Of a DNA stretch of 64,000 nucleotides, positions 48,489 to 63,230 are shown in pieces. The stretch is from positions 1-64,000 of IMG/VR virus record IMGVR_UViG_3300021963_000106, one strand, 5' to 3'. This DNA comes from a virus. A program made the position numbers and the translations under genes. Position 1 is the stretch's first letter. Each line of letters begins with the position of its first letter. The notes under the pieces are model-generated. The model was not told where the DNA came from and did no database searches. It saw nothing but the letters and a program-made list of their open reading frames with translations.

Positions 48489-48517
48489 ACACTATAGGGA
48501 CACTCTCAGGGGCCCAG
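48489..48517 (-). promoter_or_regulatory. Intergenic cassette, copy 1
   Basis: The minus strand reads CTGGGCCCC, a variable centre, TGTCCC, TATAGT. The left flank diverges (ATCTGGG instead of AACTGGG). It is the outermost copy on the left and controls the 82-aa gene. Confidence 0.7.
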
Positions 48518-48541
48518 ATAGTCTTACTCAGTCTGTATGAG

Positions 48542-48715
48542 TTACCACTTATCAGGACGACTGAGATCTTCCACATAAGCCGAAACCTTCTCAGCTGGTT
48601 CCAATTTGAATACCTTCTCCCAGTCAAGTTGATGTGGGTCGAAGTCCTCAAAAACCTCAAACTCTAGAGTGACCCTATAACGTTGCTTCTGAGCTTGACG
48701 ATACGCAACTGACAT
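48542..48715 (-). CDS. 57-aa small protein
   Basis: MSVAYRQAQKQRYRVTLEFE leads to an acidic stretch (VFEDFDPHQLDWEKVFKLEP). I chose the ATG at 48,715 because a GGAG site lies 8 bp upstream and a sigma70 promoter lies just beyond. The longer frame would start inside the promoter. Confidence 0.75.
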   Translation of the reverse strand: MSVAYRQAQKQRYRVTLEFEVFEDFDPHQLDWEKVFKLEPAEKVSAYVEDLSRPDKW

Positions 48716-48743
48716 GAGCTTTCTCCGTTGGTGTTCTTGTGTA

Positions 48744-48772
48744 AGTCTAAGATACCTGGGAATTATTGTCAA
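48744..48772 (-). promoter_or_regulatory. Sigma70-type promoter TTGACA-17-TAGACT
   Basis: A perfect -35 (48767-48772) and 17-bp spacer with a weaker -10 TAGACT (48744-48749), giving a leader of about 22 nt before the 57-aa gene. Confidence 0.65.
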
Positions 48773-48784
48773 CGTCCTGGGGAG

Positions 48785-48792
48785 TATTTATC
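48785..48792 (-). promoter_or_regulatory. Late-type box GATAAATA next to the sigma70 promoter
   Basis: GATAAATA lies 12 bp upstream of the -35 element, so early-type and late-type boxes occur in tandem. The same variant occurs at 47,578. Confidence 0.4.
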
Positions 48793-49064
48793 AGGGGTCG
48801 GTGGATTTTTATGCGGGGATTGTGGGGATTTTATGACGGGGGGTTGCCATATTCTGAGTGTTCGTGTAAGCTCATGCACGGTAAGATCACAAGACTCTGA
48901 GCACATTAAAAGGGTATAATAAGGTCTTTAATTGATACGAATTCATATCATTATCACCTTTTGATAACAATACTGATCACACAAATAAATCTCCCAGCTA
49001 TAATTAAAAAAGGCTTTTTTAATCGTTTTAATACATTTTTGACTATAAATTGGTAAAAAAGACA
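48793..49064. other. Longest non-coding gap, with G-runs and palindromes
   Basis: No ORF fits on either strand. Plus-strand G-runs of 4, 4, 4 and 6 occur at 48,794, 48,815, 48,824 and 48,838. A 6-bp inverted repeat TTATCA/TGATAA spans 48,951-48,967. A perfect 9-bp A/T hairpin ATTAAAAAA-GGC-TTTTTTAAT spans 49,003-49,023. The rest is A+T-rich. It could be a replication origin or control region; this is inference. Confidence 0.45.
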
Positions 49065-49091
49065 TAAAAAAAGACCCTGGAAGTAGGGTCT
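49065..49091 (-). terminator. Intrinsic terminator after the 78-aa gene
   Basis: A 7-bp perfect stem AGACCCT/AGGGTCT with a 6-nt loop, followed on the minus strand by seven Ts. The A/T hairpin at 49,003 lies beyond it as a possible backup. Confidence 0.9.
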
Positions 49092-49101
49092 CTATGTTAT
49101 A

Positions 49102-49338
49102 TCAATCAATCGCTAATCTGTACCTTGCATAATCTTCTGCATCAGATCTTTTCTTGAATCTTGCTTCTTCACCTTCAAACCTGAGTGGCAAGTATCGGTA
49201 TTTCTTTCCTTCCTTAGTCATAACGATTCGGGAGAATAGATGAAGAGAGTAACAACCTTCTTCTGTATATTCACTCTCTTTCTTTACTATGAATGGCAGA
49301 ACTTGTTGATCGTTGAATGACTGTTTAGAGAGTAACAT
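49102..49338 (-). CDS. 78-aa small protein, unnamed
   Basis: MLLSKQSFNDQQVLPFIVKK is followed by a Tyr-rich YSLHLFSRIVMTKEGKKYRYLPLRFEG and a KKRSDAEDYARYRL helix. It looks like a small alpha/beta protein and is the last gene before the terminator. Function unknown. Confidence 0.7.
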   Translation of the reverse strand: MLLSKQSFNDQQVLPFIVKKESEYTEEGCYSLHLFSRIVMTKEGKKYRYLPLRFEGEEARFKKRSDAEDYARYRLAID

Positions 49339-49348
49339 TGTGAAAGAC

Positions 49349-49483
49349 TCAGTTAGGAACTTCTTGAATTGTTTCGGTGATAGTGATAACTTCTTGTGTA
49401 TCAGTTAGATAGTCTGTCTTGATAACATTCGGACCAATGATAACTTGACCAACGATGATTGATGCTAGGAGAGTTTCAATCAT
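49349..49483 (-). CDS. 44-aa small protein, possibly membrane-associated
   Basis: MIETLLASIIVGQVIIGPNV gives a hydrophobic first half; the second half is Thr-rich and acidic (DTQEVITITETIQEV). A single N-terminal membrane helix is possible. Unrecognised. Confidence 0.6.
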   Translation of the reverse strand: MIETLLASIIVGQVIIGPNVIKTDYLTDTQEVITITETIQEVPN

Positions 49484-49490
49484 TTTGATT

Positions 49491-49625
49491 TCAGTTGTTA
49501 ATCAGTTCGGCAGGACTTCCACAAGAGAGATAGAATTGCACCATCCTTTGTGCTTCATCTAATGTAGAGAATGATTGCGTTCTCCATTGTTGTCGATAAG
49601 GCGTAAAGTAACGGATGGTGAACAT
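49491..49625 (-). CDS. 44-aa small protein
   Basis: MFTIRYFTPYRQQWRTQSFS leads to TLDEAQRMVQFYLSCG, a beta-then-helix layout. Two adjacent ATGs overlap the upstream stop, so translation is probably coupled; the product may be one residue longer. Unrecognised. Confidence 0.65.
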   Translation of the reverse strand: MFTIRYFTPYRQQWRTQSFSTLDEAQRMVQFYLSCGSPAELINN

Positions 49626-49807
49626 CATTTTGTAGGATAAAGACAGGAACTAACTTTACCAGGAGTTGCTATAACTTGTCCTCCTTTCTCTATACATTGT
49701 GCCTCTACTTGTGTGTTTCTAACGTTAATAATACCAAGAAGAAGTACAGCAAAAATAATACCTCCAAGAATGATAATTACGTTCATTTGGAGTTGCTCTC
49801 TGTTCAT
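49625..49807 (-). CDS. 60-aa single-pass membrane protein
   Basis: A clear transmembrane helix (NVIIILGGIIFAVLLLGII, residues 9-27) is followed by a short outside or periplasmic tail with two Cys (QCIEKGG, SSCLYP) that could form a disulphide. Role unknown; it may act at the host envelope. Confidence 0.75.
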   Translation of the reverse strand: MNREQLQMNVIIILGGIIFAVLLLGIINVRNTQVEAQCIEKGGQVIATPGKVSSCLYPTK

Positions 49808-49811
49808 AAGA

Positions 49812-50129
49812 TCAGTTCAGACGCATACCAGAGAAGAAAGGAATTGTAGTTCCATCAGACATACGGAACTGCCAAACATAGTTCTTTTGAAATACACTTT
49901 CATTGCCAATTCCATGTGCTTGGAGAAGTGCATTAAGACGTGACTTTGTGGTGTTAGATTGCCAACCACCATCAAACAGTTGCATCCAAGTGTCGCCAAT
50001 CTTAGCAATCAGATTGTTGTGCAGATACACTTCGGAAACATCATCAACAGTGATAACTTCAGTGTTAGCAAGTTTCCAGTCTTTCGATGCAGTGATAGCA
50101 TCATTCATCAGTTTTTCGATCTTACGCAT
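49812..50129 (-). CDS. 105-aa phage protein of a widespread small family
   Basis: The core NTEVITVDDVSEVYLHNNLIAKI, then GGWQSNTTKSRLNALLQAHGI and FQKNYVWQFRMSDG match a common phage family (DUF8033-like, from memory). The ATG lies 20 bp downstream of cassette copy 2, in a leader without Shine-Dalgarno. Function unknown. Confidence 0.8.
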   Translation of the reverse strand: MRKIEKLMNDAITASKDWKLANTEVITVDDVSEVYLHNNLIAKIGDTWMQLFDGGWQSNTTKSRLNALLQAHGIGNESVFQKNYVWQFRMSDGTTIPFFSGMRLN

Positions 50130-50148
50130 GGTTGGAAGTGTTGTGGTT

Positions 50149-50179
50149 ATACTACAGGGACAATGTGACGGGCCCAGTT
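50149..50179 (-). promoter_or_regulatory. Intergenic cassette, copy 2
   Basis: It keeps AACTGGGCCC and TGTCCC, but the centre is GTCACAT and the -10-like box is TGTAGT. It starts right after the stop of the 38-aa gene, and a short CCAGT/ACTGG pairing with that gene's end is possible. Confidence 0.7.
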
Positions 50180-50296
50180 TCAGTTACTGACTGGAGAGAT
50201 AATATCAGCAACTGTGTGTAATGTGTTTGCAGTGATGTTACGAACTCCAGGTGAGAGTATCATCGCAACAATAAAGATCAGTAGGATTGTTTTCAT
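50180..50296 (-). CDS. 38-aa hydrophobic peptide
   Basis: MKTILLIFIVAMILSPGVRN is a signal-anchor or signal-peptide-like start, followed by 18 polar residues. Its stop abuts cassette copy 2. It may be a small membrane or exported peptide. Confidence 0.6.
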   Translation of the reverse strand: MKTILLIFIVAMILSPGVRNITANTLHTVADIISPVSN

Positions 50297-50331
50297 CTTA
50301 CTGGGTGACTTGAATGTAAGACTTTTTGACA

Positions 50332-50562
50332 TCAATCGAAACGGGAAGATACATCAGGACCAGGATTCTCAAGATGTGCTACACTATCTGCAATGCGATC
50401 TTGTGACAATGCAAACTGTACTTTCTGACCTTCATAATAAATGTCAAAGACAGATTGCACATAAGGTGTTAGATTACCTTGTGCATCCCATGCGTTTCGT
50501 GTGTGTGAAGTCTCAACGATTTGATAGACTTTAGAAGTCAGAGGAGAGGTGTAAGTGATCAT
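50332..50562 (-). CDS. 76-aa protein, start embedded in cassette copy 3
   Basis: MITYTSPLTSKVYQIVETSH is followed by FDIYYEGQKVQFALSQDRI, a beta-rich small domain. The ATG immediately follows TATAGT, with no room for a ribosome site and no early second Met. If the box is a -10, this mRNA would be leaderless or the true start would be a non-ATG codon. Unrecognised. Confidence 0.7.
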   Translation of the reverse strand: MITYTSPLTSKVYQIVETSHTRNAWDAQGNLTPYVQSVFDIYYEGQKVQFALSQDRIADSVAHLENPGPDVSSRFD

Positions 50563-50592
50563 ACTATAGAGACAATCTCAGGGGCCCAGTTA
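50561..50592 (-). promoter_or_regulatory. Intergenic cassette, copy 3
   Basis: AACTGGGCCCC, then TGAGAT, TGTCTC and TATAGT. One change (TGTCTC) breaks the GGG/CCC pairing seen in other copies, which argues against that internal stem being essential. Confidence 0.75.
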
Positions 50593-50595
50593 ATC

Positions 50596-50757
50596 TCACC
50601 AGTTGATGAGTGTAGCAATGTTGCCAAGCTTGTTTTGTTCGTCTACAATCTCCATGGCATGATTGTATGTTTTGACGGAAATGTAACGTGATTTTCCTCT
50701 AGTCTCAGGAAACAATCCTAGTTTGTCAATGATGCGAACTGTGTTGGAATGTTTCAT
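50596..50757 (-). CDS. 53-aa small protein, HTH-like
   Basis: MKHSNTVRIIDKLGLFPETR then GKSRYISVKTYNHAMEIVDE looks like a small helical, possibly DNA-binding protein. The end reads ...LINW, with AACTGGTGA at the stop just before the cassette. The assignment is weak. Confidence 0.65.
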   Translation of the reverse strand: MKHSNTVRIIDKLGLFPETRGKSRYISVKTYNHAMEIVDEQNKLGNIATLINW

Positions 50758-50951
50758 TTCAGAAAGTGACGATAATCAATGGATTTGATGCACCAACCAG
50801 TTGCAGCTGTGATTTCTTCGATTAGATCTTCTTCATCATCAGCTTCCCAAATCATACCGATAGTTTCATCGGTAATGTTACTAAACTCATGTTCAGGAAA
50901 GTCATCATCTTCATCAAAATCAAACTCGATTGCAGTAACTTGGAATTGCAT
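50754..50951 (-). CDS. 65-aa very acidic protein
   Basis: MQFQVTAIEFDFDEDDDFPE and EADDEEDLIEEITAATGW make it strongly acidic. Such small acidic proteins sometimes mimic DNA or RNA, but this is speculation. Both ends overlap neighbours by a few bases. I use the ATG at 50,951, which overlaps the upstream stop. Confidence 0.75.
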   Translation of the reverse strand: MQFQVTAIEFDFDEDDDFPEHEFSNITDETIGMIWEADDEEDLIEEITAATGWCIKSIDYRHFLK

Positions 50952-51214
50952 CAAACTGCACCTGCCATAAAGTTGTAATCTTGCACCAGGTTAATGTTAT
51001 CGCCAGTGATCACATAATCCATTGCAAGACGCTCATTGATCTCACGTTGTGCATCTTTTTTGGTCAGACACTTTTGAGAGATGGTATCAATACCCTTCCA
51101 AGAAAGAACCTTGAGAGTATAGTTGGAACAATCCTCAATGGGATAGAAACCAACAATCATTGTGCCATCTTTAGACTGGAGAGTAGGAAACTCGATCATG
51201 GTAGTGTTGCTCAT
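50951..51214 (-). CDS. 87-aa protein starting MSNTTM at cassette copy 4
   Basis: It continues MIEFPTLQSKDGTMIVGFYP and ends in a helical, charged region (KKDAQREINERLAMDYVITG). The first ATG overlaps the TATAGTATG box. A second ATG at 51,199 (MIEFP) may be the real start, giving 82 aa. The same MSNTTM start occurs in the 143-aa gene at 54,319. Confidence 0.7.
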   Translation of the reverse strand: MSNTTMIEFPTLQSKDGTMIVGFYPIEDCSNYTLKVLSWKGIDTISQKCLTKKDAQREINERLAMDYVITGDNINLVQDYNFMAGAV

Positions 51215-51243
51215 ACTATAGGGACAATCCCAGGGGCCCAGTT
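51213..51243 (-). promoter_or_regulatory. Intergenic cassette, copy 4 (near consensus)
   Basis: The minus strand has AACTGGGCCCC, a short variable centre TGGGAT, TGTCCC and TATAGT, then AT of the start codon. GGGCCC is centred about 28 bp upstream of the expected +1, where an activator box would be, and the -35 hexamer is not TTGACA-like. An imperfect ACT-GGG/CCC-AGT pairing is possible. Confidence 0.8.
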
Positions 51244-51251
51244 TCAGTAAC

Positions 51252-51434
51252 TCAAAGACCGTTGATGTAATCAGCGACTGCATCTTTGTATTCTTTTTCA
51301 GTCTCAAAGATGCGACCGTGAATGTTACGCGGATAAGTTGGATTCGATTCACCAACTGCAGCAACCATGTAACAATCTTGGGCATCATAGCCCATCTCGA
51401 TGAGGTTTTGAACGTAAGGGTTGTAATGTGTCAT
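51252..51434 (-). CDS. 60-aa protein, start embedded in cassette copy 5
   Basis: MTHYNPYVQNLIEMGYDAQD then TYPRNIHGRIFETEKEYKDA; helical and soluble. As at 50,562, the ATG directly follows TATAGT. Met14 is the next in-frame ATG. Unrecognised. Confidence 0.7.
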   Translation of the reverse strand: MTHYNPYVQNLIEMGYDAQDCYMVAAVGESNPTYPRNIHGRIFETEKEYKDAVADYINGL

Positions 51435-51463
51435 ACTATAGGGACAATCTCAAGGGCCCAGTT
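51433..51463 (-). promoter_or_regulatory. Intergenic cassette, copy 5
   Basis: AACTGGGCCC then TTGAGAT, TGTCCC and TATAGT. It sits directly after a double TAATAA stop. Confidence 0.8.
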
Positions 51464-51464
51464 A

Positions 51465-51608
51465 TTATCGGAAACTGACATTGACACCAACAACTTTTGC
51501 TTTAGGATTGCGAGCGAGAGCTGTTTCCCGCGCATCTTTTGGGTTGGTTGCTTGTACTTCTTCTTTGAAGACTTTACCACCAACGTATAGATCAACAATG
51601 TACTTCAT
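51465..51608 (-). CDS. 47-aa small protein
   Basis: MKYIVDLYVGGKVFKEEVQA then TNPKDARETALARNPKAKVV, a beta-beta-helix layout common in small phage proteins. The start overlaps the upstream stop by 4 bp; the stop abuts copy 5. Confidence 0.7.
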   Translation of the reverse strand: MKYIVDLYVGGKVFKEEVQATNPKDARETALARNPKAKVVGVNVSFR

Positions 51609-51799
51609 AGTGTTTGGAAAGGTTGGGCTTCTTTGATGTTAGAATTGAAAAACTTTTGAAAGATAGAATCAATCACAGGATACCATTCTTCGTTTGCACT
51701 TGGGAATCCACATTCTCGTGCTTGATTGAGAAACTTCAGGATGCAAGTTTCCTCATTAGCAGTGAAATCAACGCGATTGAAAGTGTAACCGTCAGTCAT
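51605..51799 (-). CDS. 64-aa small protein
   Basis: MTDGYTFNRVDFTANEETCI then LKFLNQARECGFPSANEEWY; helical with two Cys. I use the ATG at 51,799 rather than two codons upstream, because it directly follows the previous stop. Unrecognised. Confidence 0.7.
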   Translation of the reverse strand: MTDGYTFNRVDFTANEETCILKFLNQARECGFPSANEEWYPVIDSIFQKFFNSNIKEAQPFQTL

Positions 51800-51801
51800 A
51801 A

Positions 51802-51969
51802 TCAAACAGGGGTAACTTCAACGGAACGGATAAGATTTGTGCGATCTTGTGCTAGGTAATCATCAGCGATTTTACCACAAGATGAACGAGACTGAATGAA
51901 CTTTTCTTCATAACAAATCCCTGCACTGTTGGGGGCTTTGTACTCAATCAACAGGCGATAGTTCTTCAT
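51802..51969 (-). CDS. 55-aa small protein
   Basis: MKNYRLLIEYKAPNSAGICY then KIADDYLAQDRTNLIRSVEV. It has the same beta-helix-beta look as the 47-aa neighbour and may share its fold. Unrecognised. Confidence 0.65.
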   Translation of the reverse strand: MKNYRLLIEYKAPNSAGICYEEKFIQSRSSCGKIADDYLAQDRTNLIRSVEVTPV

Positions 51970-51975
51970 AATCAA

Positions 51976-52206
51976 TCAGGCAGGAAGAATACAGAAAGTG
52001 CCACACCAGTTGCGAACCCATTGTAGAGTTTCGTAGTAAGATGTGCGGGGGTTGCTCATCTCCATTGTGGAACCATTGTGAGGATTGTGTGCAACAGCGA
52101 CATAAAGATTGTCACACTCTTTATCAGTAATCTGTTCAATCCACATTTGATTGACTTTGCCTTCCTTCCAATTTGTGTGGTAGGAGTAGACTTCGGAGAC
52201 GATCAT
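51976..52206 (-). CDS. 76-aa protein downstream of cassette copy 6
   Basis: MIVSEVYSYHTNWKEGKVNQ then LYVAVAHNPHNGSTMEMSNP, with several His and Trp residues. Copy 6 has TATAGTATAA, so the first ATG lies 19 bp downstream and the start is unambiguous. Unrecognised. Confidence 0.7.
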   Translation of the reverse strand: MIVSEVYSYHTNWKEGKVNQMWIEQITDKECDNLYVAVAHNPHNGSTMEMSNPRTSYYETLQWVRNWCGTFCILPA

Positions 52207-52224
52207 GGTAGGAGTGTTGTGCTT

Positions 52225-52255
52225 ATACTATAGGGACAATCCCAGGGGCCCAGTT
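52225..52255 (-). promoter_or_regulatory. Intergenic cassette, copy 6
   Basis: AACTGGGCCCC, TGGGAT, TGTCCC, TATAGT. The 19-nt stretch between the box and the ATG has no Shine-Dalgarno. Confidence 0.8.
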
Positions 52256-52260
52256 ACTAT

Positions 52261-52763: not shown

Positions 52764-52905
52764 TTGTTTTCCACCCAGATTTCAAGGATTTAATCATTTT
52801 AGACAAAGTTTGTTCGTTACCCTTTAGTCTGGGATTGCAACGACGTTTCTCAACTAGAGGTGGATTGTAGAGTTTGATTGTTGATGCTAAACGCAAATCA
52901 TTCAT
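52753..52905 (-). CDS. 50-aa basic protein
   Basis: MNDLRLASTIKLYNPPLVEK then RRCNPRLKGNEQTLSKMIKS; basic and short. The ATG overlaps the upstream stop (ATGA) and the 3' end overlaps the next gene by 11 bp. This tight packing supports it as a real gene. Confidence 0.65.
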   Translation of the reverse strand: MNDLRLASTIKLYNPPLVEKRRCNPRLKGNEQTLSKMIKSLKSGWKTNDL

Positions 52906-53090
52906 TCCTCATCCTCTTCATAAGGGAACATTTCATCATACTCTTCATCAGTCAGAGTAAGATATTGAACATTGGCATTTTTATGCTCTTCAGCATACAT
53001 CAACTGATAATGTGCGAAAGAAGATGGGTCGCTGCTAGCATACTCTAACAGGCCATCAACAAAACAAAGGTAGTTCATTGGAGTGCTCAT
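52902..53090 (-). CDS. 62-aa acidic protein starting at cassette copy 7
   Basis: The first ATG lies in the box; a second ATG (MNYLCFVDGLLEYASSDPSS) lies four codons in and may be the real start. The C-terminus is a run of acidic residues (DEEYDEMFPYEEDEE). Unrecognised. Confidence 0.7.
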   Translation of the reverse strand: MSTPMNYLCFVDGLLEYASSDPSSFAHYQLMYAEEHKNANVQYLTLTDEEYDEMFPYEEDEE

Positions 53091-53119
53091 ACTACTAGGA
53101 CACTTTGAAGGGCCCAGTT
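53089..53119 (-). promoter_or_regulatory. Intergenic cassette, copy 7 (divergent)
   Basis: AACTGGGCCC and TGTCC are kept, but the centre is TTCAAAG and the box is TAGTAGTAT. It lies between the 62-aa gene and the GIY-YIG gene stop. Confidence 0.6.
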
Positions 53120-53123
53120 ACAA

Positions 53124-53792
53124 TCATTCAATTCTTACTCTTTGTGATGTATCAATTCCTCTTTTTCTTTGATACTTTGTAAGATTGCCAGCATTTGTTA
53201 TAAATCCCGTCTCCAAACATTTCCATTTCTGATAACCAGATTTTTCTCTTATTTTTTGCCTAATTTCTTCACTATGTTTTCTATTTTTTCCTGCTTCACT
53301 TAATTTTTTCCTTTGCTCTTCACTTACAATTTTTCCCCTATTTCCATCTCCTATTTTTCTCCGTGTTTCCTCACTTGGAGATTGACCTTTATTCCAAGGT
53401 GTTTTACCTTTTGCTGCTTCACTTAATTTTTTTCTATGTTCTTCACTAAATCCTTTGCCTTTTTGAGAATTGCTAATTTTTCTTCTCCACTCTTCACTAC
53501 ACTTTCCACCTTTATTCCAAGCAATAGCACCAGAAGTTCCATCACCACCATTAGTTAAGTTCCTCAAGATGCCAGTCCCTAAATCTTTTCTACCAAACAC
53601 AGCAATCATATACTTTTCGTGCTTAAATGCTTCTTCCTCTGTTAGATTTTGTTTAAGAAAGATTATTCTATCTTTTGGCGGAACATTCAGTTTTCTATTA
53701 ACTTTAGAATATGCTCTCCTATCTTTACCCTTCCCAATGTAGTAGGGAGTTTTATCCTCACGCAAATAAGCGTAGGTATAGTAATTATTCAT
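53124..53792 (-). CDS. GIY-YIG homing endonuclease with NUMOD3 repeats
   Basis: The 222-aa protein has an N-terminal catalytic domain (YYTYAYLREDKTPYYIGKG, residues 4-22, with Arg and His following) and a conserved Asn/Gly block (LRNLTNGGDGTSG). About five NUMOD3-type DNA-binding repeats follow (for example SEEHRKKLSEAAKGKTPWNKG), then a C-terminal helix domain. The gene is flanked by a cassette on one side and an inverted repeat, terminator and late promoter on the other. It shares its catalytic half with the 166-aa enzyme at 56,477. Confidence 0.9.
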   Translation of the reverse strand: MNNYYTYAYLREDKTPYYIGKGKDRRAYSKVNRKLNVPPKDRIIFLKQNLTEEEAFKHEKYMIAVFGRKDLGTGILRNLTNGGDGTSGAIAWNKGGKCSEEWRRKISNSQKGKGFSEEHRKKLSEAAKGKTPWNKGQSPSEETRRKIGDGNRGKIVSEEQRKKLSEAGKNRKHSEEIRQKIREKSGYQKWKCLETGFITNAGNLTKYQRKRGIDTSQRVRIE

Positions 53793-53815
53793 ACTGCTTT
53801 GTTTGTGGTTATACT

Positions 53816-53823: not shown

Positions 53824-53824
53824 C

Positions 53825-53848: not shown

Positions 53849-53887
53849 AATCTCTTCGCTTGAATAACCACAAACAAGCAACTTTAT

Positions 53888-54319
53888 TTATCGTCGGTAG
53901 AGCCAACCGCCGCTCCAATCCGCATTTTCCAGAGCCCACTCCCTCTCTTTAATGATTAGGAGATTGCACCTTTCGCCCTTTGCAGGACTACGCCACGATG
54001 CTGACTTGAAAACGCCTCCGTTTTGCTTATCTACAAAGAAAGCAACACTACGCGATCCACCACCATTCACCATAATAACTTTGTGATACTTTTTACCAGT
54101 TTCTACAGTATAATCAATGTCGCACTTACCAGACTTGAGTTCATCAATCTTCCGCTGATGATACTCCTGAGTGTCAGCATCATTCACGAACTTTTGATGA
54201 CCGCGAATAGAATACTGCACATAATTCTGCTTGAGTGCTTCAATCAGCAGAAGAGTGTTCTTATACACATTCTCTGCAATAATTTGTTTTGCTTGTGCTT
54301 GCATGGTAGTGTTGCTCAT
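53888..54319 (-). CDS. 143-aa phage protein, unnamed
   Basis: The N-terminal helices MQAQAKQIIAENVYKNTLLL lead to a basic/aromatic C-terminal domain: KYHKVIMVNGGGSRSVAFFVD, GGVFKSASWRSPAKGERCNL and WALENADWSGGWLYRR. The C-terminal domain pattern recurs in small phage proteins. The first ATG overlaps cassette copy 8; the second (54,304) is a likely alternative start. Confidence 0.75.
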   Translation of the reverse strand: MSNTTMQAQAKQIIAENVYKNTLLLIEALKQNYVQYSIRGHQKFVNDADTQEYHQRKIDELKSGKCDIDYTVETGKKYHKVIMVNGGGSRSVAFFVDKQNGGVFKSASWRSPAKGERCNLLIIKEREWALENADWSGGWLYRR

Positions 54320-54348
54320 ACTATTGGGACAATCTCAGGGGCCCAGTT
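54318..54348 (-). promoter_or_regulatory. Intergenic cassette, copy 8
   Basis: AACTGGGCCCC, TGAGAT, TGTCCC, with AATAGT as the box. A direct AACTGG repeat lies at the end of the upstream ligase-like gene. Confidence 0.75.
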
Positions 54349-54352
54349 ACAT

Positions 54353-55567: not shown

Positions 55568-55603
55568 AGTTTGTGTTAGAAACTTCTGTGAGAACACGTC
55601 CTC

Positions 55604-55634
55604 ACACTAGAGAGACAATCTCAGGGGCCCAGTT
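55604..55634 (-). promoter_or_regulatory. Intergenic cassette, copy 9, with external stem
   Basis: AACTGGGCCCC, TGAGAT, TGTCTC, TCTAGT. The end of the upstream 59-aa gene reads CCCAGTT, which can pair with AACTGGG of the cassette over 7 bp with a GATTG loop. Confidence 0.7.
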
Positions 55635-55813
55635 CAATCAACTGGGAGTTTTGCTACACTCTTACCTTTCTTATGATCTGTGATATACTTTCGTGCAGAT
55701 GATTCAGTCCTGCAAAGTTTATCTAACTGTTGACCATTATGAATGATAAGATACTGGTTCCCGTAAGGAATTGCAGCATAGGTATCCTTAAACATTGTAA
55801 ATCCTTCTTTCAT
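55634..55813 (-). CDS. 59-aa small protein
   Basis: MKEGFTMFKDTYAAIPYGNQ then YLIIHNGQQLDKLCRTESSA; a beta-rich start and a basic helix. The start overlaps the upstream stop (ATGA). Met7 is an alternative start. Unrecognised. Confidence 0.7.
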   Translation of the reverse strand: MKEGFTMFKDTYAAIPYGNQYLIIHNGQQLDKLCRTESSARKYITDHKKGKSVAKLPVD

Positions 55814-56476: not shown

Positions 56477-56977
56477 TCACATATAAGGTTGACCCTTCTC
56501 TGCCCGTTTCCTTCTCCATTCTCTCATATAAAGAGCGTGAGATGATACACTCTCTTCTGGTTCATATTTTCCCTTGTTTGGAGGTATCCTACCTTTGAGA
56601 CTTTCCTTCATTTTTACTATACTTTCTTGAGTGTGTTTTCTTCCGTAGAAATGATTTTTACTTCCCATTCTACTTTGAGACATTCTACTCCTTGTTGTTT
56701 CTGTGAGAGTTGCTCCAGAAGTTCCATCGCCACCATTAGTTCTATTCCAAAGAATACCAGTTCCCAAATCTTTTCTACCTAATACACTGATTAGATAGAT
56801 TTCATGATTAAATGCGTCCTCTTCATTATCGAAATGTTTAAGAATTAAAACTCTATCTACTGGAGGAACAAAAACATATCCTCTGTGGTCTCTATATGCT
56901 CTGTTACCTTTCCCCTTACCAATGTAGTAAGGTGTTCCATCTTCACGCAGATATGCGTAAGTATAGTATTCTTTCAT
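56477..56977 (-). CDS. GIY-YIG homing endonuclease, short form
   Basis: The 166-aa protein has MKEYYTYAYLREDGTPYYIG at the start, then ILWNRTNGGDGTSG and one NUMOD3-type repeat (THTQ-type segment around KHTQESIVKMKESLKG). The catalytic half is closely related to the 222-aa enzyme, but the repeat region is shorter. The start lies one base from an inverted-repeat arm. Confidence 0.88.
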   Translation of the reverse strand: MKEYYTYAYLREDGTPYYIGKGKGNRAYRDHRGYVFVPPVDRVLILKHFDNEEDAFNHEIYLISVLGRKDLGTGILWNRTNGGDGTSGATLTETTRSRMSQSRMGSKNHFYGRKHTQESIVKMKESLKGRIPPNKGKYEPEESVSSHALYMREWRRKRAEKGQPYM

Positions 56978-57057: not shown

Positions 57058-57077
57058 GATTGCTGCCCACATTCTAT

Positions 57078-58262
57078 TTACCGACGTACTACACTATCAA
57101 CCATCTCACCTTTCTCAAAGACAGCATCAACAACTCGTTGAAGTGCTCGTTCTGTAGATACTCCAACTTTAGAATATACAGGCACCACACACAACCCCCA
57201 GACTTTCTCTTTGCCACCAAGGCGAAGAACACGACCGATAGTTTGAGTCATTTCGATCACATCCATGTTGCGAAGAAAGACTACTGCCTCTAGTTCGCTG
57301 ACGTTGATTCCCTCACTCAAGATAGAACGATGGAGACAAACAAACTTCTTATTAGGGTCACGACCCCAAGAATTGAGAGTGTCGAAAAACACTTCACGAT
57401 TTACCTTCTTGCCATCAATAATAGCCCCAGTCTTGGAGGTAATGTAGAGGTAGGAATAACCATATTGATGTAGTTTTTCAGCACAGTCAGTGTGAGACAT
57501 CAGGTTGATAAGTTGTTTCGCAGACTTAACACAAACCAGGATTTTCTTACAATCAATATCCCCCAGAGTTTCCATCAGATTGCTACTGTCACACTCAGCA
57601 GTTACCTGCTTTGGTGCAAGCACATCGAACTTCTTTGCTACAATCTTAGGAGCGATAATGTATCCACCATCAACAAGTTCGGGAGCAGAAACGCGGCAGA
57701 TGATGTCACCATAGACATCACGATCGTTCATTCCAGGTTTAGAAGGAGTGAGAGAAGTCTTCCTGGTTGCAGTGAAGAAGTAACAACGACGTGCGTTAGC
57801 AGCAAAGTGTTCAGTTGCAGGGAAAAAGTGACGTTGAACAGAATTATGTGCCTCATCAAAGTAGATCGTATCCACATCAATTCCTGCAACTTGCAGACGC
57901 GACAGAGAGTTGTAGGTAGTGAAGATCAGTTGGTGACGATTAGAAGCGGCACACATACCAGCGTGAACAAGAATGTCACGAGGTTTGGTAGTGCTAACGT
58001 GATGAGTTTCTCCACTGTGAACGTGCAGAACTTCAGCGTTAGTGATAAACTCCAGAAACTCAGCAGAGAGTTGTTCCGCAAGAAGAATACGCGGTGCAAC
58101 AACAACAATCGTCTGGGGAGTTTCAGACTGCAACTCGCGCAGACAATCATAGATCATCTTCAGAGTCTTGCCACCACCAGTAGGAACAATGATCTGACCT
58201 TTATCATGTTGTTGCATAGCAGCAACACCACGTTCTTGATGCGGACGGAGTTGGATTTGCAT
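57078..58262 (-). CDS. DEAH-box SF2 helicase
   Basis: The 394-aa protein has LRPHQERGVAAM (Q-type motif), Walker A PTGGGKT (residues 27-33), DEAH (136-139), FTATR (motif III) and an arginine-finger motif QTIGRVLRLGG near 345. It resembles type-III-restriction/RecG-like SF2 helicases and is distinct from UvsW at 1-481. Nucleic acid unwinding is expected; substrate unknown. It is driven by cassette copy 10 and precedes the third GIY-YIG gene. Confidence 0.9.
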   Translation of the reverse strand: MQIQLRPHQERGVAAMQQHDKGQIIVPTGGGKTLKMIYDCLRELQSETPQTIVVVAPRILLAEQLSAEFLEFITNAEVLHVHSGETHHVSTTKPRDILVHAGMCAASNRHQLIFTTYNSLSRLQVAGIDVDTIYFDEAHNSVQRHFFPATEHFAANARRCYFFTATRKTSLTPSKPGMNDRDVYGDIICRVSAPELVDGGYIIAPKIVAKKFDVLAPKQVTAECDSSNLMETLGDIDCKKILVCVKSAKQLINLMSHTDCAEKLHQYGYSYLYITSKTGAIIDGKKVNREVFFDTLNSWGRDPNKKFVCLHRSILSEGINVSELEAVVFLRNMDVIEMTQTIGRVLRLGGKEKVWGLCVVPVYSKVGVSTERALQRVVDAVFEKGEMVDSVVRR

Positions 58263-58276
58263 TGGAATCGGTATCT

Positions 58277-58320
58277 ATTACAAGGACATTCTAAAGGGCC
58301 CAGTTTCATCAACTGGACCC
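58277..58320 (-). promoter_or_regulatory. Intergenic cassette, copy 10, with a 10-bp hairpin
   Basis: AACTGGGCCC and TGTCC are kept; the box is TGTAAT. The upstream flank GGGTCCAGTT pairs with AACTGGGCCC over 10 bp (one G-T) around a 5-nt loop (58,296-58,305 with 58,311-58,320). This is the clearest stem-loop of the set. Confidence 0.75.
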
Positions 58321-58326
58321 CAACAA

Positions 58327-59415: not shown

Positions 59416-59446
59416 AATGTAGTTCAATTAAGAATTAAAGTGTTTC

Positions 59447-59481
59447 GGGTGGTTTCATATCTAAAAGACATTATACCACCC
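59447..59481 (-). promoter_or_regulatory. Extended -10 promoter within an inverted repeat
   Basis: TGGTATAAT (extended -10, TATAAT at 59,470-59,475) sits in a gap before the 362-aa gene. GGGTGGT (59,475-59,481 arm, minus) and ACCACCC (59,447-59,453) form a perfect 7-bp inverted repeat that overlaps the -10. No good -35 is present, so activation or repression at this site is likely. Confidence 0.6.
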
Positions 59482-59517
59482 TTCCTGACGTTTGTGGAGG
59501 GGTCTTGTGACAGTTAA

Positions 59518-59673
59518 TCAACCACCGAACATTTCATCAAAAAGCCAATCACCAGAACGCTCTTTTTCTTCCCAGACTTTGTTAGCGTTCTCAATGATCA
59601 TTGCCTGTTCGATCTTCACATCAATGGCAGATTTGGTCATGAACCAGTTGCCGTTGCGATCTTGCCAGAGCAT
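59518..59673 (-). CDS. 51-aa small protein
   Basis: MLWQDRNGNWFMTKSAIDVK then IEQAMIIENANKVWEEKERS, ending FDEMFGG. A beta hairpin followed by a helix. I chose this ATG because the longer frame starts inside cassette copy 11. Unrecognised. Confidence 0.7.
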   Translation of the reverse strand: MLWQDRNGNWFMTKSAIDVKIEQAMIIENANKVWEEKERSGDWLFDEMFGG

Positions 59674-59692
59674 TGTGTTGAGTGTCGTTGTT

Positions 59693-59722
59693 ATACTACT
59701 GGGACAATCCCAGGGGCCCAAT
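59693..59722 (-). promoter_or_regulatory. Intergenic cassette, copy 11
   Basis: TATTGGGCCCC replaces the AACTGGG flank, then TGGGAT, TGTCCC and AGTAGT. The change in the outer flank shows GGGCCC and TGTCCC are the conserved parts. Confidence 0.7.
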
Positions 59723-59727
59723 AACTA

Positions 59728-60327
59728 TCAGGGTTGATAGTGTGATGCTGGTTTATCAACTCCCTTCTGAATGTCACGATGCAGTCTCTTACCAGCTCTC
59801 ACAAGTTTCTTCTTCTCATCTTTAGTATATTTACCCTTGATCATATGATCTTCAGGTTTTCTTGAACTAGAGAATCTTGAATCTTTTGCTTGTGATGTTG
59901 GTTTAGGTGTTGCCTTCTTTCTTAGAAGTTCAGTTGCTTTTGATGCTAACTCCTTACCCTTTGGTTTTTCTGTTGTTGCAGCAGCACCTTTCTTTTTAGC
60001 AGCAATTCTTGCCTGTGCAGCCTTTCTTCTTTCTTCTTTTGCTGCAGCTAATTGTGCCTCTCTAGCCGATCCACGTTCTTGTTTTGGTGCTTCAATCGTT
60101 GATTCACGTTTCTTACCAATGTCTTTGCGGGGTTTCTGAACTACAGGCGCAGTCTTTCCACCACCAACTCTCTTTGTTCTGCGAATCTCGGGAGTTGTCT
60201 TTCTGCGAAGCCTTCCAGTTCTTCCACCCTCTCCAGTCTTAATGACTTGAGCACCAGAGCGAAACTCTGCATCATAGGTATCACCAGTTGCTTCGCAAAG
60301 AGACATAAACTCCGTGAATGTACGCAT
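59728..60327 (-). CDS. 199-aa basic internal head-type protein
   Basis: It starts MRTFTEFMSLCEA, resembling a capsid-targeting peptide, and is then almost entirely Lys/Arg/Ala-rich and disordered. An EA-type (hydrophobic-x-Glu-Ala) site near residue 12 could be cut by gp21. Basic protein packaged with DNA is the likely role. A CTAAATA late box lies about 27 bp upstream. It is a late-type gene in an otherwise early-type region. Confidence 0.75.
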   Translation of the reverse strand: MRTFTEFMSLCEATGDTYDAEFRSGAQVIKTGEGGRTGRLRRKTTPEIRRTKRVGGGKTAPVVQKPRKDIGKKRESTIEAPKQERGSAREAQLAAAKEERRKAAQARIAAKKKGAAATTEKPKGKELASKATELLRKKATPKPTSQAKDSRFSSSRKPEDHMIKGKYTKDEKKKLVRAGKRLHRDIQKGVDKPASHYQP

Positions 60328-60353
60328 TTGACTATCTAAAATACTCTTTTTAG

Positions 60354-60360
60354 TATTTAG
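60354..60360 (-). promoter_or_regulatory. Late-type box CTAAATA before the 199-aa gene
   Basis: CTAAATA followed by CTAAAA, about 27 bp upstream of the ATG at 60,327, overlapping the stop of the upstream gene. Confidence 0.5.
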
Positions 60361-60554
60361 ATGTCTTCATCCTTAGGTCGCAGTCCACCTTTACTCACAA
60401 GGCCGTTATCATAGAAATACTTTACACGTTCACGACGAGCAACCATCAAGAGATCATATTCTTCTTGTTGTTGTTTAGTGAACTTGAAATCTTGACGACG
60501 CCAAGCATCTTTCAGTTCTTTGATGTGAGGCAGAACGTTCACAGTGTCAGTCAT
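60357..60554 (-). CDS. 65-aa small protein
   Basis: MTDTVNVLPHIKELKDAWRR then DFKFTKQQQEEYDLLMVARR; helical and basic, possibly nucleic acid-binding. The start at 60,554 follows the previous stop directly. Unrecognised. Confidence 0.7.
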   Translation of the reverse strand: MTDTVNVLPHIKELKDAWRRQDFKFTKQQQEEYDLLMVARRERVKYFYDNGLVSKGGLRPKDEDI

Positions 60555-60556
60555 AA

Positions 60557-60691
60557 TCAATAATCGTAGTTGGAGTTGAGATATTCGTTAATGTTGAAAC
60601 TGTTAGATTCTTCAATCAGTTCCGTTAGATCTTTTTCAATGAAATCAAATCCTGGAGTTTCTTCAATTTGAATGTCATCAAAGCAGTCCAT
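60557..60691 (-). CDS. 44-aa acidic peptide
   Basis: MDCFDDIQIEETPGFDFIEK then DLTELIEESNSFNINEYLNS; very acidic. The ATG lies about 17 bp downstream of the TATAAT box of cassette copy 12. Confidence 0.65.
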   Translation of the reverse strand: MDCFDDIQIEETPGFDFIEKDLTELIEESNSFNINEYLNSNYDY

Positions 60692-60707
60692 AGTTTGTTT
60701 CGTGCTT

Positions 60708-60738
60708 ACATTATAGGGACAATCTCAAGGGCCCAGTT
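60708..60738 (-). promoter_or_regulatory. Intergenic cassette, copy 12, with perfect TATAAT
   Basis: AACTGGGCCC, TTGAGAT, TGTCCC and TATAAT. This copy has the canonical sigma70 -10 hexamer, the best evidence that the box is a promoter element. Confidence 0.8.
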
Positions 60739-60742
60739 TGGA

Positions 60743-60934
60743 TCAACGACTCAAGATTGCTTTCATTCTTCTTTCTTTTGCTACTTGTTGTGATCTTGCT
60801 TCTGCACCAATCTCTTGATGAACGTGTTTTCTATGTGCAACTCCACCTCTTGCCTGAGCTTGCGCTTTCATTACATTAAATGGTGTAGGATTCATGTGTG
60901 GAGTTTGTTCCATGAATTGTTTGAACGTTTTCAT
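60743..60934 (-). CDS. 63-aa basic protein with capsid-targeting-like N-terminus
   Basis: MKTFKQFMEQTPHMNPTPFN then a His/Arg/Lys-rich body (RGGVAHRKHVHQEIGAEARS). The first 10 residues are nearly identical to the 51-aa gene at 16,240. Likely a small internal head protein. CTAAATA late box 20 bp upstream. Confidence 0.75.
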   Translation of the reverse strand: MKTFKQFMEQTPHMNPTPFNVMKAQAQARGGVAHRKHVHQEIGAEARSQQVAKERRMKAILSR

Positions 60935-60953
60935 CTAACCAACACTTTTTGAG

Positions 60954-60960
60954 TATTTAG
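60954..60960 (-). promoter_or_regulatory. Late-type box CTAAATA before the 63-aa gene
   Basis: CTAAATACTC on the minus strand, 20 bp upstream of the ATG; the same sequence (CTAAATACT) precedes the 199-aa gene. Confidence 0.5.
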
Positions 60961-60962
60961 TT

Positions 60963-61229
60963 TTATTCAAACTCGAAAGACTTGTTTGATGTTTTCATTA
61001 GTGGAGTTCGATATTCTTCATCTGTAGAAGTTTGCACAAAAACTTCTATTTTAGTCTCATCATTCCAGTGACGAATCACACCAGCAACAATAAAGGCATT
61101 AGTAATCAAATAAGTCGCAAAAATAAAAGTTCGGATAAGTGCTACCTTATCCGATTCACGATCACATTTACTTGCTTTTTCTCCCAATGCTTTAGCCCAC
61201 CATCGCCAAGCAGTCTTGTTCTTCTTCAT
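60963..61229 (-). CDS. 88-aa single-pass membrane protein
   Basis: MKKNKTAWRWWAKALGEKAS is basic and N-terminal; a clear membrane helix (FIFATYLITNAFIVAGVI) follows; the C-terminal tail is acidic. It overlaps the upstream gene by 38 bp, an unusually long overlap. Role at the host membrane is possible. Confidence 0.7.
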   Translation of the reverse strand: MKKNKTAWRWWAKALGEKASKCDRESDKVALIRTFIFATYLITNAFIVAGVIRHWNDETKIEVFVQTSTDEEYRTPLMKTSNKSFEFE

Positions 61230-61455
61230 ACTTTGATTGTCTTGACTTAACATACTTCAATTCTTTCCAATCTTCTTTGTAACAAACCACTAGCAATCTT
61301 TCATTTGCATGAATGGGACAAGCGTTATAGTTTTCTGTATCTTTGGGACGAACAACATATTCAATCGTTATGTATTCGTCATCCCTAAAATAAACCCAAC
61401 CTTCAACATCTTTTGTCCATTCAACATAATCATTGACTTGTGGTTTGTATGTCAT
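61192..61455 (-). CDS. 87-aa small protein
   Basis: MTYKPQVNDYVEWTKDVEGW then YITIEYVVRPKDTENYNACP: an SH3-like beta barrel is suggested by the strand pattern and the Tyr/Val/Trp content. Start overlaps the upstream stop (ATGA). Confidence 0.75.
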   Translation of the reverse strand: MTYKPQVNDYVEWTKDVEGWVYFRDDEYITIEYVVRPKDTENYNACPIHANERLLVVCYKEDWKELKYVKSRQSKYEEEQDCLAMVG

Positions 61456-61733
61456 ACAAAGAACGCATCTAATGGGGACTGTTTAATAGGCATCGCGGTG
61501 TAATTCCGCGTATCCTTGATATTTACACAAGCACCGATGGTTTTACTATTGATGGGGGCGAAGTATTCTCTGGTCTTGGATTTATAGAATCCCCAGATTG
61601 TCCTTGTGGGAGCACCGTTATTGTAATCAAACTTGCGATTGCAATACAACCATATAGCAACAACTCCACGCTTGAATTCTTCAAACTCATAATAATAACC
61701 TTTTGGTGCTTTGTGAGGAAACTCAGCAATCAT
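61452..61733 (-). CDS. 93-aa small protein
   Basis: MIAEFPHKAPKGYYYEFEEF then KRGVVAIWLYCNRKFDYNNG and TRTIWGFYKSKTREYFAPIN; beta-rich and aromatic. I prefer the ATG at 61,733 because the longer frame overlaps the whole 55-aa coiled-coil gene. Unrecognised. Confidence 0.75.
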   Translation of the reverse strand: MIAEFPHKAPKGYYYEFEEFKRGVVAIWLYCNRKFDYNNGAPTRTIWGFYKSKTREYFAPINSKTIGACVNIKDTRNYTAMPIKQSPLDAFFV

Positions 61734-61890
61734 AGAACTTATCACGCGACATATACTCAATTTGCTTCTGCAGTTGTGAGATTTCGTGTTCTTGTTCTGC
61801 AATTTTATTTTGCAGTTGTTCAATACGTTCTTGATACTGTTTCTTCAAATCAGACACCATTTGATTGGTGTGAGTAACGTGGTTAGTCAT
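61723..61890 (-). CDS. 55-aa coiled-coil protein
   Basis: A long heptad-patterned helix (LKKQYQERIEQLQNKIAEQE, then ISQLQKQIEYM) fills most of the protein, so it probably forms a dimer or oligomer. It overlaps its neighbours at both ends. Confidence 0.75.
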   Translation of the reverse strand: MTNHVTHTNQMVSDLKKQYQERIEQLQNKIAEQEHEISQLQKQIEYMSRDKFYDC

Positions 61891-62132
61891 CAGGTGGTAA
61901 AAGATTCTACAACTTCGGATTCTACATTTTCTGAAAGAGCAAATGTTACAGCATTAAGGATGTTTTCTCTCAAGTCACTGTAGTGTTTTTCATAGAAATT
62001 GCCATTGTCTTCAGCGGAGATAAGATCAAAACACTCATCATCATCCTTTGCGACTACATTCCAAACTCCACCATACTCAGAAATAGGAAAGGGAACGTAA
62101 TGTTGAACAATGTAAAGAAACTTTTGTGCCAT
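61890..62132 (-). CDS. 80-aa conserved-looking small protein
   Basis: MAQKFLYIVQHYVPFPISEY then GGVWNVVAKDDDECFDLISA and a helical acidic end. It resembles short conserved phage proteins of unknown role. The stop overlaps the next ATG. Confidence 0.75.
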   Translation of the reverse strand: MAQKFLYIVQHYVPFPISEYGGVWNVVAKDDDECFDLISAEDNGNFYEKHYSDLRENILNAVTFALSENVESEVVESFTT

Positions 62133-62158
62133 TTGTTTGTGTAGATTACCTCTTAATT

Positions 62159-62272
62159 TTAATTGTTATCGTACTCTTTGTCAATCAAATCATCCCCATC
62201 AGATGCAACTGAAAGAAATGCAAATCCCATCGTTGCAAGAATACCCAATGCAAATCCAGCAATAAACTCCAT
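62159..62272 (-). CDS. 37-aa membrane peptide
   Basis: MEFIAGFALGILATMGFAFL is almost all hydrophobic; a polar acidic tail follows (SDGDDLIDKEYDNN). First of five tiny genes linked by stop-start overlaps. Confidence 0.65.
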   Translation of the reverse strand: MEFIAGFALGILATMGFAFLSVASDGDDLIDKEYDNN

Positions 62273-62373
62273 TAGTAAAAATTCGATCTAGACAAGTATT
62301 TTTTATAAAGATAAAGGTTAAATGCAGTTCCTCCAAAGAGGACTGCAAATGCAGTTCCAATGATAGCAATCAT
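62272..62373 (-). CDS. 33-aa membrane peptide
   Basis: MIAIIGTAFAVLFGGTAFNL then YLYKKYLSRSNFY: one hydrophobic helix and a basic tail. Its stop overlaps the ATG of the 37-aa gene (TAATG). Confidence 0.6.
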   Translation of the reverse strand: MIAIIGTAFAVLFGGTAFNLYLYKKYLSRSNFY

Positions 62374-62510
62374 CAATAAAACTCCGCAAGATAATAGTCA
62401 ACAGGTACTTCAAGTTTTGCTGCCTCGCGTTCAACTTCTTTCCAGAACTCTTCTGCTACTTTATTCATTTCTGCTTGTTTAATAAGATCACGGAGTCGTT
62501 TTGAAATCAT
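62373..62510 (-). CDS. 45-aa charged helical protein
   Basis: MISKRLRDLIKQAEMNKVAE then EFWKEVEREAAKLEVPVDYY: amphipathic, soluble helix. It lies between two membrane peptides, coupled by TGATG. Confidence 0.65.
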   Translation of the reverse strand: MISKRLRDLIKQAEMNKVAEEFWKEVEREAAKLEVPVDYYLAEFY

Positions 62511-62632
62511 TTAGAGTTCTCCTTAAGTTGATATTCTTCGCGTGGATACATTACCTTGAGGTAATATACCATAATGGATGATACAAATGCAACCAGAGTA
62601 GTATAGATTGTTATAGCAAATCCAATACTCAT
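62507..62632 (-). CDS. 41-aa membrane peptide
   Basis: A single hydrophobic helix (GFAITIYTTLVAFVSSIMVY) with a short charged tail. A GGAG site just before the following gene lies inside its 3' end. Confidence 0.65.
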   Translation of the reverse strand: MSIGFAITIYTTLVAFVSSIMVYYLKVMYPREEYQLKENSK

Positions 62633-62772
62633 TTCATTTGTTGAATTGCTTGATGACGATAGTATGCTTTATACATTGCATCATCACGCTGAATTAGAAA
62701 GACATTCCAACCAAGAATGACTGCAAAACCAATCAATCCAGAGAAAACATACTTGCGGTTTGTGTTATTCAT
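62629..62772 (-). CDS. 47-aa membrane peptide
   Basis: MNNTNRKYVFSGLIGFAVIL continues into a membrane helix (GLIGFAVILGWNVFLI), then a basic/aromatic tail (MYKAYYRHQAIQQMK). The start overlaps the upstream stop. Confidence 0.65.
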   Translation of the reverse strand: MNNTNRKYVFSGLIGFAVILGWNVFLIQRDDAMYKAYYRHQAIQQMK

Positions 62773-63185
62773 ACGGCAAGAGCAGCAGAGGGGATTTCAA
62801 CAACTTCAGGAAGTTTTTGTTCATAACAGTTCATATCATAACATATCCATTCACCATTGCGGAACACATAAGCATACTCTTCATCTGAGTTGTTCTTTTT
62901 CAGATACTCACAGAGGTCAGAATCAAGACGAGGAGGGCAATCTTCACCACGTTGGGAATAGTATTCGGGTCCATAAACACCCTTCACACCACTATCATCC
63001 CAACGAGAATCAGTCCAACAGGAACTCATATCACCACCATCAATTAGTTCTTCAACAAGAGAACGTGAATTGTAGTGAGTCTTCAGGATGCGACCCAACC
63101 ATTCGGGATAACCATCCCAGTGGTGATACACAGAGAGAATGGAACCATCCTTAAGTTCAAGACCAATGCGAGAGCGGGTTGACAT
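62769..63185 (-). CDS. 138-aa phage protein of the MSTRSRIG family
   Basis: MSTRSRIGLELKDGSILSVY, HHWDGYPEWLGRILKTHYNS and the acidic DSRWDDSGVKGVYGPEYYSQ are typical of a common small phage family of unknown function that recurs next to helicase or nucleotide genes. Six Cys residues could bind metal. The ATG lies about 16 bp downstream of cassette copy 13. Confidence 0.8.
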   Translation of the reverse strand: MSTRSRIGLELKDGSILSVYHHWDGYPEWLGRILKTHYNSRSLVEELIDGGDMSSCWTDSRWDDSGVKGVYGPEYYSQRGEDCPPRLDSDLCEYLKKNNSDEEYAYVFRNGEWICYDMNCYEQKLPEVVEIPSAALAV

Positions 63186-63200
63186 TTGAAAATTGTCCTT

Positions 63201-63230
63201 ACACTATAGGGACAATCTCAGGGGCCCAAT
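63201..63230 (-). promoter_or_regulatory. Intergenic cassette, copy 13 (rightmost)
   Basis: TATTGGGCCCC, TGAGAT, TGTCCC, TATAGTG; the flank change matches copy 11. It is 5 bp after the stop of the 54-aa gene. Confidence 0.75.

Follow-up and report, generated by a model that had tools for sequence, protein, structure and literature searches.

An intergenic cassette of T4-like cyanophages is a probable phage-specific promoter of evolving specificity

Thirteen cassettes in the early gene region

The stretch of DNA analyzed here (the window; 64,000 nucleotides, positions 1 to 64,000 of IMG/VR record IMGVR_UViG_3300021963_000106) lies within a 69-kb record, which is a fragment of a T4-like cyanophage genome according to its genes for tail tube, major head protein, scaffold, tail sheath, terminase, and baseplate wedge. 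The relatives of this phage are Kyanoviridae. Between 48.5 and 63.2 kb, among small early-region genes adjoining a helicase gene, the window carries 13 copies of an intergenic cassette composed of GGGCCC, TGTCCC, and a terminal hexamer such as TATAGT, all on the minus strand and in the same direction as the genes (Table 1). An earlier note on this sequence had reported these 13 copies in a single orientation, and all of them were found at the claimed positions. Its observation that no cassette occurs before 48 kb also holds, because the three earlier GGGCCC sites lack the remaining motif; the 5 kb of the record that lie outside the window contained no further copies. A chance origin of the repeat is excluded: the pattern CTGGGCCC-N(4-14)-TGTCCC has seven exact matches in the window and none in 100 shuffles, and GGGCCC occurs 16 times where 1.7 are expected.

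With position 0 defined as the first base after TATAGT, the cassette extends from −31 to +8. The gap between GGGCCC and TGTCCC, previously described as 6–8 freely varying bases, is fixed at exactly 7 bp, and all 13 copies have A at −14. The hexamer had been given as TATAGT with a single TATAAT. The TATAAT copy is present, but only six of the 13 hexamers read TATAGT; the other six are variants (TGTAGT, AGTAGT twice, AATAGT, TCTAGT, and TGTAAT). The copies do lie between a stop codon and the next start, as the note stated, but five of them have no gap between the hexamer and the ATG (start codons at 50562, 51214, 51434, 53090, and 54319), so that the cassette tail forms codons 1–3 of the gene.

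Table 1. Cassettes and other features of the window. A slash marks a start codon abutting the hexamer; gene coordinates are those of the gene downstream of the cassette.
Feature	Coordinates	Strand	Sequence	Gene or remark
Cassette 1	48483..48521	-	GGGCCC-CTGAGAG-TGTCCC-TATAGT-GTAAGGAC	48222-48470, ATG 20 nt downstream
Cassette 2	50143..50181	-	GGGCCC-GTCACAT-TGTCCC-TGTAGT-ATAACCAC	MRKIE gene 49812-50129 (T4-GC 637, phrog_554), leader 21 nt
Cassette 3	50555..50593	-	GGGCCC-CTGAGAT-TGTCTC-TATAGT/ATGATCAC	50332-50562
Cassette 4	51207..51245	-	GGGCCC-CTGGGAT-TGTCCC-TATAGT/ATGAGCAA	50951-51214
Cassette 5	51427..51465	-	GGGCCC-TTGAGAT-TGTCCC-TATAGT/ATGACACA	51252-51434 (MTHYNPY, phrog_649)
Cassette 6	52219..52257	-	GGGCCC-CTGGGAT-TGTCCC-TATAGT-ATAAGCAC	51976-52206
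Cassette 7	53083..53121	-	GGGCCC-TTCAAAG-TGTCCT-AGTAGT/ATGAGCAC	52902-53090
Cassette 8	54312..54350	-	GGGCCC-CTGAGAT-TGTCCC-AATAGT/ATGAGCAA	53888-54319 (phrog_818)
Cassette 9	55598..55636	-	GGGCCC-CTGAGAT-TGTCTC-TCTAGT-GTGAGGAC	~55567 to 55310
Cassette 10	58269..58307	-	GGGCCC-TTTAGAA-TGTCCT-TGTAAT-AGATACC	helicase gene 57078-58262; most degenerate copy
Cassette 11	59687..59725	-	GGGCCC-CTGGGAT-TGTCCC-AGTAGT-ATAACAAC	~59673 to 59518
Cassette 12	60702..60740	-	GGGCCC-TTGAGAT-TGTCCC-TATAAT-GTAAGCAC	60557-60691
Cassette 13	63195..63233	-	GGGCCC-CTGAGAT-TGTCCC-TATAGT-GTAAGGAC	62769-63185 (phrog_1987)
ORF (open reading frame)	53124..53792	-		matches homing endonuclease families; among cassettes
ORF	56477..56977	-		resembles the ORF at 53124-53792 by eye; among cassettes
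ORF	30132..42626	-		single 4164-aa ORF after the baseplate wedge genes; like long proteins of relatives
MQNKHLEHPED gene	~55255	-		lacks the cassette present in most relatives; directly after a terminator

Distribution and anatomy of the cassette

The earlier note had proposed searching related cyanophages for the GGGCCC-TGTCCC-TATA pattern, and the cassette indeed recurs both in IMG/VR contigs and in isolates. An exact pattern search of IMG/VR detected GGGCCC cassettes in 79 stretches, of which a few are chance matches; a search with the core returned at least 120 stretches. Overall, approximately 100 or more contigs of IMG/VR carry the cassette. Among named phages, S-SM2 has nine scan matches and SynMITS9220M01 has 10, on a single strand and clustered as in the window, and a variant of the cassette is found in S-B43, S-B05, RB11-B, and RN05-S. 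Seven whole Kyanoviridae genomes analyzed, S-PM2, S-CAM9, S-RIM44, and Syn9 among them, are without it, and a scan with the position weight matrix of the cassette gave no match in Syn9 or S-CREM1. A literature search, the scope of which did not include Doron et al. 2016, found no publication on the motif.

The alignment of 648 distinct copies from related contigs gave a cassette of approximately 39 bp, in which a distal box (−31 to −19) is followed by the near-invariant core AAAGTGTCCC-TATAGT and by RTRAGCAC. The frame shared by the copies consists of G at −25, C at −21 (98%), AAA at −16 to −14, TG at −12/−11, and TAGT at −4 to −1 (97–99%), followed by purine-T-purine-A. Position 0, preceded by T, is A or G in 99% of the copies, including those in which it is not part of a start codon. 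About 20 bp are near-invariant across copies, a figure that is somewhat overstated for the core because the copies were gathered by core-based searches (a looser scan gave further cores). Variation between phages is located at −31 to −22. Upstream of about −38, no conserved sequence was detected in the 648 copies except the stop codon that ends the gene before, and a separate −10/−35 promoter upstream of the box was rejected on this ground.

Each genome uses its own box type

The box types number at least 15, of which GGGCCC is just one; they include AACTGGGCCC, AGGGGGGACG, GTTACTCACC, GTTAGTTACC, ACTGAGGCT, TACTGAGCCA, AAGCCGGCCC, TCCGGGGCC, ACTTGGATCC, and ATAGCTCACC. Each genome has one type, and the types differ from genome to genome. 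In 81 contigs carrying at least four elements each (546 elements in all), boxes differed at 1.36 of 10 positions within a contig and at 5.17 of 10 between contigs. The cassette tail, used as a control, showed no such uniformity (4.53 within versus 4.64 between). This diversity, uniform per genome and different between genomes, is a new finding. The core variants TGTCCC, TGGACC, TGTACC, and TGCATC are genome-specific, too, and combine independently with the boxes: GTTACTCACC is paired with TGTCCC in SynMITS9220M01, with TGGACC in contig G008, and with TGTACC in contigs G010 and G011, and AACTGGGCCC is paired with TGTCCC in the window and with TGCATC in contig G005. The earlier note had drawn a parallel with mobile regulatory cassettes; what is seen here is that, between lineages, all copies of a genome differ together. 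G005 is closely related to G008 (median 90% identity over 23 proteins; DNA identity of 80–92% in the longer collinear early blocks), yet essentially all copies are AACTGGGCCC/TGCATC in the former (10 copies) and GTTACTCACC/TGGACC in the latter (11 copies). Such genome-wide switching is expected of a trans-acting reader with changing specificity. A single foreign-type cassette amid uniform ones, perhaps acquired via recombination, was seen in a few contigs (L127, L162, and L180).

Gene conversion could homogenize repeats within a genome without any reader, and T4-like phages recombine actively, which would account for the uniformity inside genomes. We consider this explanation highly improbable, since the uniformity is confined to −31 to +8 and does not include the flanks or the tail, the frame is invariant across all lineages, and the copies are tied to start codons and terminators.

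Some cassettes follow terminators, and about half abut real start codons

At several loci (L009, L013, L144, L150, L152, L160, L184, L203, and L205), the cassette lies within approximately 10–25 bases of the run of U residues in a clear intrinsic terminator. Eight of these terminators were folded and gave hairpins of −10.6 to −16.2 kcal/mol (z −2.7 to −6.0). A new transcript must begin somewhere between the terminator and the gene, a gap filled by the cassette. This arrangement argues against an element acting at the RNA level in a polycistronic mRNA, be it a translation signal, a hairpin, or a processing site, which we regard as very unlikely. The location exactly between stop and start, the overlap with start codons, and the possible pairing of the core with some box types would suit such an element. 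However, stem positions pair in 69.7% of cases versus 70.7% after shuffling and show no covariation, the core changes while the box remains the same (G005, G010/G011), and the start codon may lie anywhere from 0 to ~45 nt away. An RNA hairpin between box and core was rejected, as neither covariation nor a consistent stem was seen.

The start codon is an ATG at position 0 in 297 of the 648 cassettes, that is, in about half. Offsets 1–13 are nearly empty, and the remaining cassettes peak at 15–25 within an overall range of 0 to ~45 nt. The abutting ATG is the start codon in use: its frame is open in 281/307 ATG-type cassettes versus 103/326 others, codons 5–13 of genes without another early methionine differ mainly at the third position (49/30/136 differences at positions 1/2/3), and the MKNTHLEHPED gene has the same first residue in S-CREM1 and DSL-LC02, both of which lack the cassette.

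These start codons bear on the assignment of TATAGT as an ordinary −10 box with transcription starting 6–8 bp downstream, as the earlier note had it. About half of the cassettes have a real ATG immediately after the hexamer, which such a start would drop from the transcript; TATAGT as an ordinary sigma70 −10 box with a start at that distance is thus not supported, and the MotA-like position of GGGCCC hinges on this assignment. It is unlikely, in our estimate, that the cassette is a sigma70-type promoter in which the box replaces the −35 element and a MotA-like activator acts by sigma appropriation. The similarity of TATAGT and TATAAT to a −10 box, the box–hexamer spacing of 13 bp (12±1 for the MotA box), the leaders of the cassettes with a distant start codon (class II), and the box types, which hint at an activator, all fit this explanation. 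Apart from the lost start codons, it is at odds with the AGTAGT variants, which lack the key −11A, with the lack of MotA and AsiA described below, and with the 20 near-invariant bp, which exceed what sigma70 promoters keep.

In S-CREM1 and DSL-LC02, a −10 box precedes the ATG of the MKNTHLEHPED gene by exactly 6 nt, which is a leaderless geometry. The same spacing was found for seven early-region genes in seven non-cassette genomes versus approximately two at other offsets; the excess is restricted to the early region, and no genome-wide excess was detected. Loci with this spacing are L090 (S-CREM1, 17282), L416–L424 (DSL-LC02), and L397–L415 (SCAM9/SRIM44). Judged from the sequences, this spacing implies leaderless early mRNAs in non-cassette T4-like cyanophages. 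By analogy, transcription from the cassette probably starts at or just before position 0. With the start placed at position 0, TGTCCC would occupy the place of the −10 box, and recognition would have to differ from that of sigma70. The earlier reading of the repeat as a promoter cassette of early genes that departs from ordinary sigma70 promoters is supported.

Proposed mechanism and search for the reader

MotA and AsiA (PF09158, PF09010) had no match in SynMITS9220M01, S-SM2, S-B43, G001, or the window record, which is a fragment, although both families were matched in the T4 positive control; PF09114 was not searched. This agrees with the reported absence of both proteins from cyanophages cited in the earlier note, and a reader, such as the activator it had suggested, is likely. 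A T7-type single-subunit RNA polymerase as the reader is strongly disfavored and hardly credible. T7-type promoters are lineage-specific and change together, their length and invariance are similar, and CCCTATAG of the cassette resembles CACTATAG of T7/SP6 promoters. However, PF00940 was unmatched in the four whole cassette genomes and the window record (the T7 control was positive), and no cassette-specific protein is of polymerase size.

The cassette probably represents a new class of early promoter in one branch of T4-like cyanophages, read by a putative, probably phage-encoded, and fast-diversifying factor. Each copy would be the complete promoter of one early-region gene, with two specificity modules, the distal box (−31 to −19) and the proximal block (−12 to −7), set on the frame AAA, TG, TAGT-RTRA. 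A putative phage-encoded DNA-binding or initiation factor would read both modules and direct RNA polymerase, presumably that of the host, to initiate at the purine that follows TATAGT or slightly upstream of it. Genes with an ATG at position 0 would yield leaderless or near-leaderless mRNAs and the other genes a short leader of about 14–45 nt. As the specificity of the reader diversifies, all promoters of the genome would change along with it. More tentatively, the reader may be a phage initiation factor non-homologous to MotA, AsiA, and phage polymerases, with its own promoter class, at least 15 codes, two separately evolving modules, genome-wide switches between close relatives, and leaderless early mRNAs.

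Several points weigh against this proposal. The comparison of gene content between four cassette genomes and seven others revealed only small or irrelevant genes and no recognizable DNA-binding protein, and identity patterns of SynMITS9220M01 and S-B43, which have the same box, gave no convincing candidate. Shared ancestry accounts for part of the uniformity seen between contigs. The −12 to −7 block (TGTCCC) is unlike any sigma70 −10 box, so that a mechanism based on the host polymerase needs a further unusual factor, and TATAGT does look −10-like, to which class II cassettes alone would conform. The reader may be a common gene with changed specificity, a virion protein, or encoded outside the compared contigs.

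A 60-aa protein (SynMITS9220M01, 77022–77204) is conserved in 4/4 cassette genomes and absent from the seven others. The best matches by identity pattern were rejected as readers, namely a 67-aa protein also present in the non-cassette phage S-CAM9 and genes of the high-light/psbA region. An exchangeable gene at 45.2–45.9 kb was rejected as well, because it does not track the box type. At this site (45210–45905, minus strand) and at its counterparts in G005 and G008, quite different proteins share the identical or near-identical C-terminal tail RDSNPVKSSDFNESGANNDQKSR, which overlaps the next gene; the tail is thus fixed, whereas the gene is exchangeable.

It is quite unlikely that the boxes form an operator or stoperator array, bound by a phage repressor or exclusion factor acting on early transcription, with the promoter in the core. 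The boxes are repeated, intergenic, in a single orientation, and lineage-specific with switching between relatives, as such an array would be, but in all copies they sit at a set distance from the core and the start codon, are always at gene starts, and occur in a lytic T4-like context in which no repressor candidate was seen by gene content. This explanation is also compatible with the proposed promoter, since a box reader could activate or repress.

The control of early and middle genes in T4-like cyanophages without MotA and AsiA has been called unclear (PMC2984593). A promoter class that may be read off the DNA is present in two cultured phages with laboratory hosts, and near-identical phages with different promoter codes provide a natural experiment for finding the reader. 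The annotated start codons directly after TATAGT in S-SM2 and SynMITS9220M01 gain meaning as well. Should a phage gene encode the reader, phages infecting the same cell would be isolated from each other in their transcription, and an orthogonal promoter set for cyanobacteria would be ready-made.

Comparison with known systems

Like the cassette, the new early regulatory element that Doron et al. 2016 reportedly described in cyanophage Syn9/P-TIM40 belongs to the early genes of T4-like phages. Syn9, in which the cassette was not matched, carries a TGTGACA...GTGGCACA-like repeat and a sigma70-like −10 box at its early genes. A TGTGNCA...TGNCACA inverted repeat is found upstream of a sigma70-like promoter of the same MRKIE gene in non-cassette cyanophages (L211–L290; L352–L358). 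The PeSL elements of phage RB49, which is also T4-like, combine a stem-loop with an early promoter and likewise recur as promoter cassettes; the cassette has no consistent stem and is different from them, as the earlier note supposed. The promoters of T7, T3, K11, and SP6 share with it the long near-invariant repeated sequence, the genome-wide specificity switches, and C-CTATAG, whereas cassette phages have no single-subunit polymerase and the cassette has an extra box at −31 to −19.

T4 middle promoters have a MotA box (TGCTTtA) centered at −30 with a spacing of 12±1 (PMC2988021). Like the cassette, they combine an upstream box with a −10-like hexamer and lack a −35 element. The cassette boxes (GGGCCC, TCACC, GGGGGGACG, etc.) do not conform to the MotA-box consensus, and the cassette differs in the lack of MotA and AsiA, the start codon abutting the hexamer, the long invariant core, and the lineage-changing box. 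The stoperators of Cluster A mycobacteriophages are many intergenic sites of the same orientation, the sequence of which changes with the cognate repressor between related phages (PMC6550527), but they are 13 bp long and mostly not promoter-associated, whereas the cassette has 39 bp and is always at a gene start. The Start Associated Sequences of Cluster K mycobacteriophages precede start codons, number 11–19 per genome, and have a subcluster-specific extended part (PMC3203893); unlike the cassette, they were proposed to function in translation, and their sequence (GGGATAGGAGCCC) is unrelated. Judged by the features tested, the cassette belongs to none of the three classes of T4 middle promoters, T7-type promoters, and PeSLs. 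The original observation stands and is larger than first described, and the element probably acts as a phage-specific promoter whose specificity evolves.

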